From assembly GCF_038452275.1 (NCBI RefSeq), contig NZ_CP141643.1:496001-560000 (forward strand): 64,000 nt of DNA. Direction: 5' to 3'. The stretch comes from Corynebacterium sp. BD556 (GTDB lineage Bacteria; Actinomycetota; Actinomycetes; Mycobacteriales; Mycobacteriaceae). Below the pieces are notes generated by a model. It saw nothing but the letters and a program-made list of their open reading frames with translations. It was not told the origin of the DNA and did no database searches. A program made the position numbers and the translations under genes. Positions 17,977-61,988 of this stretch are shown in pieces. Every line of letters begins with the position of its first letter. Positions within the stretch are counted from its first letter, which is position 1.

Positions 17977-19611
17977 TTAGTAGCTGAGTGCTTCGAAGTA
18001 GCCGGGGGCGTGTGCGGAGGTGACCTTTCCGGTGCGCAGGTAGTCAACGACCATGCGGTCAACGACCTTGTTGCCCAGCGCGACATGACCGTGTCCTGGG
18101 CCGTGGACGGTGACGAGCTGGGAGTTCATGGCGTTGGCGATGGTGCCGTGTCCGGCGTAGATGGTCTGTGGGTCGTTGATGGCGTTGATTTGCATCGGGC
18201 GGGTTTTCAACCCCGCTGCGCTCAGGGCCACCTTGCCGGTGACGGGAGCGGCACCATTGCAGTACGCGCCCGAGCCGATCATCGCGTTGGGTGCGGTGAA
18301 GATGTCGCCGGTGACGAAGTTCGACCACACATAGGCGGGGATGAGAAGGGGGTTGGCGGGGGAGACGTTCTCGTTGCACAGTTGCGCGCCTTGGAGTTGC
18401 ACGAGAGCGATCTGCTGTGCCTGAAACTCCTCAAGAACCTCCTTCGAGGGGTCCGGAATCGGCTCGCCGGCGAGCGGGGTTTGAAGGGTTCCGTTGGTCA
18501 ACCGCGCCAGGGTGTCCCAATTCATTGCTTGGGGCAGCATGAAACGAGTGGCTGAGAGAAGCTTCGAGTTGACTTGGTTAGCGCCGGGGTTGAGCAGGCG
18601 GGAGACGATACCTTCGCTTTCGACACGTGCTTTGCCGGTGGCGGTCATCGCGTCAGCTCCGGCTTGGCCGACGAAGGCCAGTCCCGGCGGCAGGTCGCCG
18701 ACTCGGGCAGGCGGCGGGGTCACAGTCGGGTTGGTGCCGGTTTCCGCGACGATTTTGTTTGACCAGTACTGGTATGCCTTCAGTGGGGTGTTACCCATCT
18801 GGTAGCGCTCGTCATTGCGTGCCACGTAGTCGAAGTATTCGTTGAGGACCCGTTCGTATCCTGCTTGCTGGTCGGACATGAGCTTTTGCCACTGGGCGTT
18901 GGGGTCCATGGCGGAGTCAAGAACGACTTTGTCCGTCGTGTTGGGGAACAAGGTGGCGTAAGCGGAGCCGAGGTAGGTGCCGTAGGACAACCCCATGATG
19001 GAGATGGTGTCGTAGCCCAAAGCTTTGCGTGCGGCTTCCCAATCTCGCGCGTTGTTTTCGGTGGTTAGGGTTTGTGCGTAGCCGGGGATGGGGCCTTGGC
19101 ATAGCTGGCGGGTGGCCGCGCCGGTGTTCAGCAACATGTCTGCCTGCAATTTGGCCGCGGAGGACAGGTCGCCGGATTCCGGGAAGGAACATTCAAGTGG
19201 TGTGGAGTGCAGCAGGCCCCGCGGTTGGACGGCGATGAGGTCCCATTCGTCGCGGATTTCCTGCGGCCATTGAAAACCGGCTTGTGATGTGCCGAAGTAG
19301 GTGTAGGCGTCGCCGCCAGGGCCACCAGGGTTGCCGTAGAGGGCGCCGCGGCGTGCCGCGGGGTTGGCAGCCGGAATCTTCATTACGCCGATGGATATCT
19401 TCGCGCCTGCTGGATTGGAGTAATCCATCGGGGTGGCGAAACGTCCGCACTGCGCGGTCGGGGCGTCGACGTGTACCGGGCACGGTTCCCACTGGATTTC
19501 AGGGGTAGCTTGCGCGTTTGCCGTCGGCATCATGGCGAGGACACCACCGAGCGTCATCGCGGCAGCGCCAACAAGTGAAGCAAAGCGGTTTTTCGGGGAC
19601 TTCCGTGCCAA
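17977..19611 (-). CDS. Secreted TAP-like alpha/beta hydrolase (tripeptidyl aminopeptidase family)
   Basis: A 544-residue exported hydrolase. The signal peptide ends near TANA/QA (residue 33). GNPGGPGG (93-100) is the oxyanion region, GLSYGTYLG contains the nucleophile Ser (about 209), and the C-terminal VHGPGHGH supplies the His and belongs to the TAP-like C-terminal domain. Family members cleave N-terminal tripeptides or act as mycolate-envelope esterases; the substrate here is unknown. The usual DPRG motif reads VQPRG. Six cysteines suggest extracellular disulfides. In C. glutamicum a similar secreted hydrolase also sits just before argS (from memory). Confidence 0.85.
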   Translation of the reverse strand: MARKSPKNRFASLVGAAAMTLGGVLAMMPTANAQATPEIQWEPCPVHVDAPTAQCGRFATPMDYSNPAGAKISIGVMKIPAANPAARRGALYGNPGGPGGDAYTYFGTSQAGFQWPQEIRDEWDLIAVQPRGLLHSTPLECSFPESGDLSSAAKLQADMLLNTGAATRQLCQGPIPGYAQTLTTENNARDWEAARKALGYDTISIMGLSYGTYLGSAYATLFPNTTDKVVLDSAMDPNAQWQKLMSDQQAGYERVLNEYFDYVARNDERYQMGNTPLKAYQYWSNKIVAETGTNPTVTPPPARVGDLPPGLAFVGQAGADAMTATGKARVESEGIVSRLLNPGANQVNSKLLSATRFMLPQAMNWDTLARLTNGTLQTPLAGEPIPDPSKEVLEEFQAQQIALVQLQGAQLCNENVSPANPLLIPAYVWSNFVTGDIFTAPNAMIGSGAYCNGAAPVTGKVALSAAGLKTRPMQINAINDPQTIYAGHGTIANAMNSQLVTVHGPGHGHVALGNKVVDRMVVDYLRTGKVTSAHAPGYFEALSY

Positions 19612-49202: not shown

Positions 49203-49622
49203 CAAGGTCAGTGGGCTCTAGTTTGACACACCTTTCGACACCGAAAGGAAAATCCGAGCTAAAGGCCCGCCCCCAAGCCTAATGTGACACGTTTAATACC
49301 GCCCTGCGGCACCGCAAAACCCCAGTACAGCGGCGCTTTGGGGGGAAACGGGCCGCCCCCACGCGGACGAATGTGCCGCGAAAGCCCCCTAAAGCCCCCA
49401 AGATGCCACAGACCTGTTAGGCTATCCGCTGGGTTTGCTTGAGGTAGATATAGGCCTGCTTGAAGGTTGGCGTTGAACTGCCTGAAGAAACATCCCCTGC
49501 TTCGCGGTCGCTGATGTGCGACGGAGTCCGCCGCGGATGCAGTGTTTTGAAGACGTCCATCGCACCGCGTCCGCCTTGCGGGTGCGGCCCGAGAACGGGA
49601 GAGAACGCTGAGCGTTACAACT
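49203..49622 (+). other. Upstream region of the atp operon
   Basis: No gene is supported in this stretch. A TTGACA at about 49222 lacks a matching -10. TAGGCT at 49418-49423 is the best -10 for atpB and would give a leader of about 195 nt. GGGAGAG at about 49598 lies before a CTG in frame with atpB. Confidence 0.4.
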
Positions 49623-58292: not shown

Positions 58293-58580
58293 ATGCTGCG
58301 GCGCAACCGGCGCGATCGAATTACTCCCTCTTACCGGCTGCCGCAGGACGGCTCCACCTTTTTGGGAACTAGGCAAGAAGAAGGACCTTCGTGGACTCGC
58401 GGGGAAATTTACATGGTGCGCAGCATGGGTTCGGCGGCGGCGAGTAAGTTCTACGTTTGCCCTGGGTGCAACCAGAACATTCCGCCTGGGGTGGCGCACA
58501 TTGTGGTTTGGCCGAGGGATAGTGGCCGTGGGGTAGATGACCGCAGGCATTGGCACAAGAACTGTTGGCAGCGTCGCTAA
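58293..58580 (+). CDS. Small zinc-ribbon-like protein, conserved in actinobacteria
   Basis: A 95-residue basic protein with YVCPGCNQNIPPGVAHIVVWP and a C-terminal RRHWHKNCW: two CxxC-type cysteines plus His/Cys at the end make a treble-clef or HNH-like zinc site. I recall such proteins (sometimes called ATP/GTP-binding) beside nucS in actinobacteria, but no function. AAGGAAAA precedes the ATG. It ends 10 bases before the thiamine-binding gene interrupted by the IS. Confidence 0.8.
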   Translation: MLRRNRRDRITPSYRLPQDGSTFLGTRQEEGPSWTRGEIYMVRSMGSAAASKFYVCPGCNQNIPPGVAHIVVWPRDSGRGVDDRRHWHKNCWQRR

Positions 58581-58629
58581 GCTGGGACGCATGATTGCAG
58601 CTTTTTCCATTGCTCCGACGGTTACTGAT

Positions 58630-58634
58630 AATGC
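58630..58634. repeat. Left copy of IS target-site duplication (AATGC)
   Basis: AATGC directly precedes the left end TGTCAGC of the IS element. The same five bases follow the right end at 60813. Confidence 0.85.
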
Positions 58635-58684
58635 TGTCAGCGCTCTTTGAAAAGTAGCCCAAAACGCTCCTCGAAAAGTAGCCC
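58635..58684. repeat. Left terminal repeats of the IS21 element
   Basis: Two copies: AGCGCTCTTTGAAAAGTAGC at 58639-58660 and ACGCTCCTCGAAAAGTAGCC at 58664-58684. Confidence 0.9.
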
Positions 58685-58704
58685 ACCCGGAAAAGATTGG
58701 ATGG

Positions 58705-59907
58705 GTGATTTCATTGGAGGAATGGGCGCAGATCCGATACCTGCGTGGGCAGGGTCTGTCATTGAGGAAGATCGCGGCCGAAGTGGGCTGTGCGAAGAAG
58801 ACGGTGGAGAAGGCTTTGGCTTCAGATTCGCCGCCTTGTTACAAGCCACGGGATGCCAAAGGCACGAGTTTCGATCCGTTTGAACCGCAGGTCAGGGAAC
58901 TTCTCACGGAAACACCGCAGCTTAATGCCAAGGTGTTGGCTCAGCGAGTGGGCTGGACAGGCTCGGATTCATGGTTTCGCAAACACGTTGCCAGGATCCG
59001 GACTGAGTATATGCCCGCCGACCCAGTCGATACCCTTACTCACGCCCCGGGGCGTGAGATCCAATGTGATCTCACTTTTGCACCGGGTGGACTACCTGAT
59101 GCTGATGGGGTCTACCGCGCGTTGCCGGTGTTGGTGATGGCAGCCTCGCATTCTCGTTTCGCTGCGGCGTGTGTGCTTCCCTCGCGCACGACTGATGACT
59201 TGATCGCCGGGATGTGGCAGTTGATAACACGTGATTTCCAAGCGGTACCAGATCGGCTCGTGTGGGATCACGAGTCCGGGATTGGCAAGGCGAAGCTGTG
59301 CGAGCCTGTTGCCGCATTCGGCGGGGCGCTGTGCTGCAGAATCGTTCAGACCCCACCGCGGGACCCGGAATCTAAAGGCATCGTCGAGCGCACCAACGGG
59401 TACATGAAGCGTTCCTTCTTCCCCGGGCGCCGGTTCAGCGACCCGGTGGATGTGCAAGCCCAACTTGATGAGTGGTTCACCACAATCGCCAACGCACGCG
59501 TTCACACCACGTTGAAGGCCACACCGGCGGACTTGTTTGCAGCTGATCAGCGGGCGATGCGCCCCTTGCCACCGTATCCGCCGGTGTTCGGTGTCAGGCC
59601 CGCGGTGCGCCTGCCGCGAAACTACTACGTCACCGTTGACACCAACCAGTACAGCGTGGATCCGACATTCATTGACCGACTAGTCACTGTGCGCAGCACG
59701 CTTGATGAAATCGCCGTGACCGGGCCACACGGTGAACCCGCCGCGGTGCACCCGCGCCACTGGGGCCAGCACAAGGTCATCACCGACCCCGCCCACGCCC
59801 AAACTGCCCGCGCCATGCGCCGCGACCTAGCTACGGCGGGCGAGAGATTCCAGCCAGATACCGCTGTTGACATCGCTGACCTATCCATCTACGACCACAT
59901 CGCCTAA
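58705..59907 (+). CDS. istA: IS21-family transposase IstA
   Basis: A 400-residue DDE transposase. An N-terminal helix-turn-helix (SLRKIAAEVGCAKKTVEKAL) is followed by the catalytic residues: Asp in QCDLTF (about 115), Asp in VWDHESG (about 190) and Glu in SKGIVERTNGY (about 227). The C-terminal half carries PNYYVTVDTNQYSVDP-like residues. GTG 58705 is used; an ATG at 58701 is out of frame. Confidence 0.93.
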   Translation: MISLEEWAQIRYLRGQGLSLRKIAAEVGCAKKTVEKALASDSPPCYKPRDAKGTSFDPFEPQVRELLTETPQLNAKVLAQRVGWTGSDSWFRKHVARIRTEYMPADPVDTLTHAPGREIQCDLTFAPGGLPDADGVYRALPVLVMAASHSRFAAACVLPSRTTDDLIAGMWQLITRDFQAVPDRLVWDHESGIGKAKLCEPVAAFGGALCCRIVQTPPRDPESKGIVERTNGYMKRSFFPGRRFSDPVDVQAQLDEWFTTIANARVHTTLKATPADLFAADQRAMRPLPPYPPVFGVRPAVRLPRNYYVTVDTNQYSVDPTFIDRLVTVRSTLDEIAVTGPHGEPAAVHPRHWGQHKVITDPAHAQTARAMRRDLATAGERFQPDTAVDIADLSIYDHIA

Positions 59908-59950
59908 CACGGCCTCAACGCCCCACAAACTTCAAGGAGAGCTCTTTCCT

Positions 59951-60748
59951 ATGACCCGCACCAGCGCCCACGACACCGCGGCGGCAATTAGTCACCTCGC
60001 ACGGGAGTTGAAAGCCCCACGCATCGACAACGTCTACTCAACCATCGCCGATCAAGCACGTAGCCAATCCTGGACATTCGAGGAGTACCTCGCCGCCGTG
60101 CTATCTGTCGAAGCGACCGCCCGCGCAGAATCCGGAGCATCATTACGCGTCAAACGCGCCGGCTTTCCGGCCGTGAAAACCATCGCCGACTTCGACTTCA
60201 CCGCACAACCCAGTATTGACCGCACTGAAATCGCACGCCTTGAAACCGGGGCCTGGGTCGCCACAGCTGAAAACGTCGTCCTGCTCGGCCCACCCGGAAC
60301 CGGCAAAACCCACCTCGCCACCGCACTTGGCATCACAGCAGCGCAGCAAGGCTATCGCGTCCTCTTCGACACCGCCGCCGGGTGGGTAAACACCCTCACT
60401 GAAGCCCACAACACCGGCAAACTCGAAACGCTGCTGAAACGATTAAACCGCTACCACCTGCTCATCATCGACGAACTCGGCTACATTCCCGTCGAAGCTG
60501 ACGCGGCGAACCTGTTTTTTCAACTCGTCTCCAGACGCTACGAACACGGCTCCATCATCGTGACCTCAAACCTAGCGTTTTCCCAATGGGCGCAATGCTT
60601 CGGCGACATCACAGTAGCCACCGCCATGGTCGACCGCATCGTCCACCACGCCAAAATCTTTCAACACCGAGGAGTAAGCCACCGCATCAAAGGACGCGAA
60701 ATACCCGCACCAACAACCCCCTCACCAACCCCACATCAGGCACAATAA
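59951..60748 (+). CDS. istB: IS21-family helper ATPase IstB
   Basis: A 265-residue AAA+ protein that stimulates IstA strand transfer. Walker A LLGPPGTGKTHLA (about 115), Walker B LLIIDELGYIP (about 174), and sensor SIIVTSNLAFSQW are intact. AAGGAGAG precedes ATG 59951. It is 43 bases after istA. Confidence 0.93.
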   Translation: MTRTSAHDTAAAISHLARELKAPRIDNVYSTIADQARSQSWTFEEYLAAVLSVEATARAESGASLRVKRAGFPAVKTIADFDFTAQPSIDRTEIARLETGAWVATAENVVLLGPPGTGKTHLATALGITAAQQGYRVLFDTAAGWVNTLTEAHNTGKLETLLKRLNRYHLLIIDELGYIPVEADAANLFFQLVSRRYEHGSIIVTSNLAFSQWAQCFGDITVATAMVDRIVHHAKIFQHRGVSHRIKGREIPAPTTPSPTPHQAQ

Positions 60749-60761
60749 CAACGACCACACT

Positions 60762-60812
60762 GGGCTACTTTTCAAAGAGCGCCAGTGGGCTACATTTCGA
60801 AGAGCGCTCACA
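60762..60812. repeat. Right terminal repeats of the IS21 element
   Basis: Inverted copies of the left motif: GGGCTACTTTTCAAAGAGCG at 60762-60783 and GGGCTACATTTCGAAGAGCG at 60787-60808. Confidence 0.9.
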
Positions 60813-60817
60813 AATGC
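60813..60817. repeat. Right copy of IS target-site duplication (AATGC)
   Basis: AATGC directly after the right end CTCACA matches the left copy at 58630. Confidence 0.85.
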
Positions 60818-61085
60818 GAACGCGGAGATGTCCGAGGCGGTTGCGCGTGCGGTGCGCATTGTGCGTGCTTCTGGGCTGCCAAACGAAACCACGGCGATGT
60901 TTACCACCATCGAGGGGGAGTGGGACGAGGTGATGGAGGTGATCAAACGGGCCACGGAGGCAGTCGAGGAGGTTTCGCCGCGTGTTTCGCTGGTGATCAA
61001 GGCCGATATTCGCCCCGGCTATACCGATATGCTCCATCAGAAAATGGAGTCTTTGAACAAGCACCTTGAGGGATAAGAGTAAACC

Positions 61086-61988
61086 ATGGCTGATTTCGTT
61101 TCGGGCGCCGTTGACCTGTCGGCGTTGAAAAATAAGGCTGGTGGTGGCGCTGTGCAAGGCGGCAGCACCGCCGCCTTTACTGCTCAGGAGGACGGTTTCG
61201 AGCCTTTCATCACCGCCACCCAGGACAGTTTTGAAGATGAGGTGCTGCGCCGCTCTGCGCAGGTGCCGGTGATTGTGTTGGTTGGCTCGGAGCACTCCGG
61301 TGAATCGGGGGAGCTGAAGACAACTTTTGCACAGCTTGCGGCCGGGCAGCGGGCCTTTAGGGTTGCTTACGTCAACGCTGAAGATTCGCCTTTGCTCGCC
61401 CAGATGCTGGGCGTGCAGGTGGTGCCCACGGTCATTGCGTTGGCTGCGGCGCGGCCAGTGGCGAGTTTTGAAGGCAACCAGCCGCGAGAGGAGTTGAAGG
61501 CGTGGGTTGAGGCCGTTGTTGCGCAGCTTGGGCCTCAGCTTGAGGGCCTGCCCGACGAGAAGAGGCCCCAGGATACGGATTTTGTGCACGACCCTCGCTT
61601 AGCGGATGCCACGGCGTCGCTCAACCGGGGTGATTTCGACGCCGCAAGCACCATCTACGACGCGGTGCTTGCCGACGACCCCTCGAACACCGAGGTCAGA
61701 CAGGCCAAGGCGACCGTGGCGGTACTGAAGCGTTTGGATCTCAAGGGGCGCACCACCGATCCGGTTGCGGAGGCGGAAGCGGATCCGGGCGACGTCGACA
61801 AGCAACTTGCTGCCGCCGATGCCGAAGTTGTCGCTGGTGCGCCGGAGAAGGCCTTTACGCGCCTTGTGGCGCTGGTGAAAACTTCCCCGCGCGCCAAAGA
61901 ACGTCTCCTCGACCTGTTTACGCTGTTTGAGCCTGGGGATCCGCGCGTGATTGAGGCCCGCACAAAGTTGGCTTCGGCGCTGTTTTAG
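61086..61988 (+). CDS. Thioredoxin-fold co-chaperone CnoX/YbbN-like protein
   Basis: A 300-residue protein with an N-terminal thioredoxin fold (SFEDEVLRRSAQVPVIVLVGSEHSGESGELKTTF; PTVIAL cis-Pro region) and TPR-like helices from about 165. The usual CxxC is replaced in the SEHSGES stretch, so it cannot be an ordinary dithiol oxidoreductase; CnoX-like holdase function is inferred. Nine bases after the disrupted thiamine-binding gene, it was probably co-transcribed with it. Confidence 0.85.
   Translation: MADFVSGAVDLSALKNKAGGGAVQGGSTAAFTAQEDGFEPFITATQDSFEDEVLRRSAQVPVIVLVGSEHSGESGELKTTFAQLAAGQRAFRVAYVNAEDSPLLAQMLGVQVVPTVIALAAARPVASFEGNQPREELKAWVEAVVAQLGPQLEGLPDEKRPQDTDFVHDPRLADATASLNRGDFDAASTIYDAVLADDPSNTEVRQAKATVAVLKRLDLKGRTTDPVAEAEADPGDVDKQLAAADAEVVAGAPEKAFTRLVALVKTSPRAKERLLDLFTLFEPGDPRVIEARTKLASALF

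Follow-up and report, generated by a model that had tools for sequence, protein, structure and literature searches.

The window analysed here, a stretch of 64,000 nucleotides from Corynebacterium sp. BD556, holds a gene of the PF01910 family (thiamine-binding protein, MTH1187-type; hereafter thiBP) that lies in two pieces on either side of a complete insertion sequence. The features of the locus, in positions of the window, are:

58591–58634, + strand: 5' piece of the PF01910 gene (codons 1–14 and two bases of codon 15)
58630–58634, unstranded: left target duplication AATGC, 5 bp
58635–60812, + strand: complete IS21-family insertion sequence, 2178 bp
58635–58685, unstranded: left end of the element with two ~21-bp repeats of L1/L2 type (58641–58661 and 58665–58685)
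58705–59907, + strand: istA, DDE transposase, 400 aa without internal stop
59951–60748, + strand: istB, AAA+ helper ATPase, 265 aa without internal stop
60761–60812, unstranded: right end of the element with two ~21- to 22-bp repeats of R1/R2 type (60761–60782 and 60785–60806)
60813–60817, unstranded: right target duplication AATGC, 5 bp
60818–61076, + strand: 3' piece of the PF01910 gene, with a possible 82-aa frame from Met19 (60828) that lacks the start of the domain
61086–61988, + strand: cnoX-type gene (thioredoxin and TPR_20), an intact 300-aa frame and the next gene in a tight cluster, so placed that polarity is possible

The inserted element and its other copies

The element opens with TGTCAGCGC and closes with GCGCTCACA; the 27 nt at either extreme pair as an imperfect terminal inverted repeat with 89% complementarity, and its ends read TGT...ACA, with the terminal CA of IS21 elements. 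IstA scored 191.9 bits against the IS21 DDE transposase model NF033546 (cut-off 160), and IstB, in which the Walker A motif GPPGTGKT is intact, scored 286 bits against NF038214 (cut-off 200) and 253 bits against PF01695. Preceded by a ribosome-binding-like AAGGAG, istB lies directly downstream of istA on the same strand, which is the gene order of IS21. With both proteins above curated cut-offs, paired terminal repeats and a 5-bp duplication, the assignment to the IS21 family made in the initial annotation holds, as does its description of both genes, the terminal repeats and the duplication as undecayed: both frames are open, and the AATGC copies at the two borders are perfect and exact to the base.

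Biochemical work on IstA of the IS21 family describes 5-bp direct repeats, two repeats per end, a terminal CA and no strong target sequence (PMC10122671). The present element shares with IS21 and IS5376 the co-directional istA and istB, the two repeats at each end, the terminal CA and the 5-bp duplication, and its five duplications likewise show no evident preference for a target sequence (PMC10122671). A plasmid source was considered and rejected, as plasmid records contained no near match to this IS21/IS5376-type element, the best plasmid IstA (Mycobacterium gordonae) being 49% identical. Our paper search turned up no publication that describes an IS21 element with a target duplication in Corynebacterium.

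As the initial annotation had proposed checking, we looked for the element elsewhere in the genome and found four further complete copies in the chromosome. The five are 3–7 substitutions apart per 2178 bp, istA and istB are open in all of them, and each is flanked by a perfect 5-bp duplication (AATGC, CCATT, GCGTC, GGGAT and GCCAC), where matching flanks would be expected by chance in about 1 in 1024 cases per copy. Copies broken by later events, with duplications still recognisable (CTTGC and CCTTT), occur at two more sites, around 1.56 and 1.61 Mb. Near-identical copies with perfect duplications argue for a recent insertion, in agreement with the earlier reading, and the element is predicted to be active, the 3–7 substitutions between its copies pointing to recent movement. 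Outside this genome, a full-length copy in G020 is 99% identical, although its 5-bp flanks do not match each other, and parts of the element in G021 and G042 are also 99% identical; copies in other species are about 75% identical. The thiBP protein of G020 and the rejoined product described below share only 82% identity. The element is thus far better conserved between the two genomes than the host gene, and appears to have moved recently, also between species.

Several of these sites are complex in their own right. The broken copies (L012, G000:C1 1556000–1570000; L013, 1598000–1612000) are interrupted by other sequences, and two in L013 have the same left flank and the same right flank, which suggests that a segment of this IS-rich zone was duplicated. 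In L010 (G000:C1 8400–21800), IS3-type transposase genes adjoin two complete copies separated by about 8 kb, and the copy at 18039 seems to sit inside such a gene; near them, a HipA_C match and a polysaccharide deacetylase match share one frame, which probably marks a rearrangement junction.

The interrupted gene and its distribution

The insertion point separates the second and third bases of codon 15 of thiBP. The frame of the 5' piece runs into the element and stops after 19 residues, while joining 58591–58634 to 60818–61076, that is, removing 58635–60812 and one AATGC, restores 303 nt, or 100 codons and a stop, exactly the 100 residues that had been claimed. Searched against PF01910, the joined product scored 99 bits (E 1.5e-28; Pfam gathering score 24.9) and covered profile positions 1–91 of 92, which bears out the claim that the element splits an MTH1187-type gene with a piece on each side. 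It also matches the solved relatives MTH1187 (1LXN), MJ1052 (2EKY) and TM0486 (1VK8) over almost its whole length. Against TIGR00106, the MTH1187 family model, it scored 52.3 bits, slightly under the cut-off of 54.7; intact Corynebacterium orthologues lie astride that value (51.5–56.3 bits), three of the five tested falling below it. The Corynebacterium branch of thiBP is a predicted thiamine binder by family membership. For TM0486, a title cited in PMC6393860 names thiamin binding and a response to oxidative conditions.

Comparison of the locus in relatives showed an undivided thiBP at the corresponding position, a single frame of 98–116 codons in the common arrangement DUF2550 – nucS – 95-aa ORF – thiBP – cnoX – glgB, with glgB on the opposite strand. 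In one of these loci (L083, Corynebacterium sp. Marseille-P4321) the gene order is the same and GlgB is 83% identical. Alignments with four of the closest relatives run through the insertion point gap-free, so that these represent the empty site. The case that the initial annotation had named as refuting its reading, two separate conserved genes, was looked for in close relatives and not found.

The gene was also called conserved, and this stands with a qualification. Of 61 genomes of the genus searched for thiBP, 55 have the gene, and the PF01910 model was positive in 207 of 241 genomes, the present one being counted through its 3' piece; 34 of the 240 relatives (about 14%) lack the family. 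Some of them (L141, L143 and L168) are missing both thiBP and cnoX, and others miss thiBP alone. In another species, G025 (L140, G025:C59, 1046–1497), an independent deletion removed thiBP residues 1–48 and fused residue 49 to the tail of the upstream 95-aa ORF. Judged from this distribution, thiBP is dispensable in the genus, and an insertion into it is therefore tolerated. At L141, L143 and L168, glgB follows directly after the nucS region, which suggests a joint loss of thiBP and cnoX.

In the present genome the split gene is the single match to the PF01910 Pfam model, and since there is no second copy, the function of thiBP has probably been lost. The earlier proposal of a loss in this strain agrees with this; relatives were sampled at one genome per species, so that a loss confined to the strain and one shared by the whole species would look alike here. 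ThiC is present in this genome. We considered whether thiBP goes with de novo thiamine synthesis and rejected this, as ThiC occurs in 27 of the 34 genomes without PF01910 and in 144 of the 207 with it (rough test over 241 related genomes; Fisher p 0.31). A widely kept and poorly understood PF01910 gene can thus be lost in Corynebacterium although ThiC is kept, and the split locus provides a natural knock-out for a gene of unclear cellular role.

Origin of the split locus and the position of cnoX

We conclude that an active IS21-family element almost certainly jumped into codon 15 of the sole PF01910 gene, made a 5-bp duplication and inactivated the gene. In this reading, IstA and IstB would have carried out a transposition of the ordinary kind, generating the AATGC duplication and leaving a 5' piece that could yield a 19-residue peptide and a 3' piece that could yield at most 82 residues without the first 18; from these truncated frames we infer the loss of thiBP function. 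The insertion would have been tolerated, the gene being dispensable in the genus, and the downstream cnoX would possibly be affected. No evidence against the insertion was found. The event is an ordinary one: an IS21-family element present in several copies has recently inactivated a gene that the genus can do without, a textbook case of gene loss through a mobile element that is seen soon after it happened.

It is hardly conceivable that the two pieces belong to separate genes or that an assembly error produced the arrangement. Such errors can in principle arise from repeated elements; here, however, the assembly is one contig of 2.35 Mb in which this and every other complete copy has a perfect duplication, and relatives have thiBP in one piece. 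The locus may conceivably be mixed in the population, or the assembly may have fixed a minority state. Continued translation of the 3' piece from Met19, giving an 82-aa protein with some remaining function, is also very unlikely. This frame does match PF01910 at positions 15–91 with 91 bits and has accumulated no stop, but an undecayed frame would be expected anyway after a recent insertion, and a GGAG directly against the ATG is poorly spaced for initiation. The product would moreover lack the first 18 residues, which in this family hold the first beta strand of a small single-domain fold.

The alternative that deserves more weight, which we regard as possible though on balance unlikely, is that the insertion acts mainly by polarity, cutting cnoX off from its promoter and lowering CnoX chaperone and redox function. 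The two genes are tightly packed, with a gap of 9 bp here, most relatives having one of about −4 to 20 bp, and at L039 a minus-strand ORF, by eye glyoxalase/epimerase-like, lies directly upstream of thiBP. The thiBP–cnoX promoter there would accordingly lie just upstream of thiBP, and by analogy the promoter serving cnoX probably has the same position here, in which case the element has put 2.2 kb between them; the suggestion in the initial annotation that cnoX may be parted from its promoter thus stands as a possibility. Against polarity, the cnoX frame is intact at 300 aa, and istA and istB are oriented towards cnoX. A scan of the + strand from istB to cnoX showed no terminator-like site, so that transcripts of the element may carry cnoX. 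An outward promoter at the right end of the element was considered and rejected, as a consensus scan gave hits at chance level only. We think it improbable that the element, read towards cnoX, replaced the native promoter and so altered the control of the CnoX chaperone, rather than merely knocking out thiBP. After the insertion, cnoX may be silenced, read through from the element or unchanged.

Two further observations concern the surroundings. The 95-aa ORF between nucS and thiBP (58293–58580) is found genus-wide, often at 60–77% identity, and carries CPGC and HWHxxC motifs that make it zinc-ribbon-like; it matched no Pfam or NCBIfam model. Rfam detected no riboswitch at the locus, and elsewhere in the window an atpB cis-regulatory RNA (RF02916) lies at 49497–49621, with a score of 118.6 bits.
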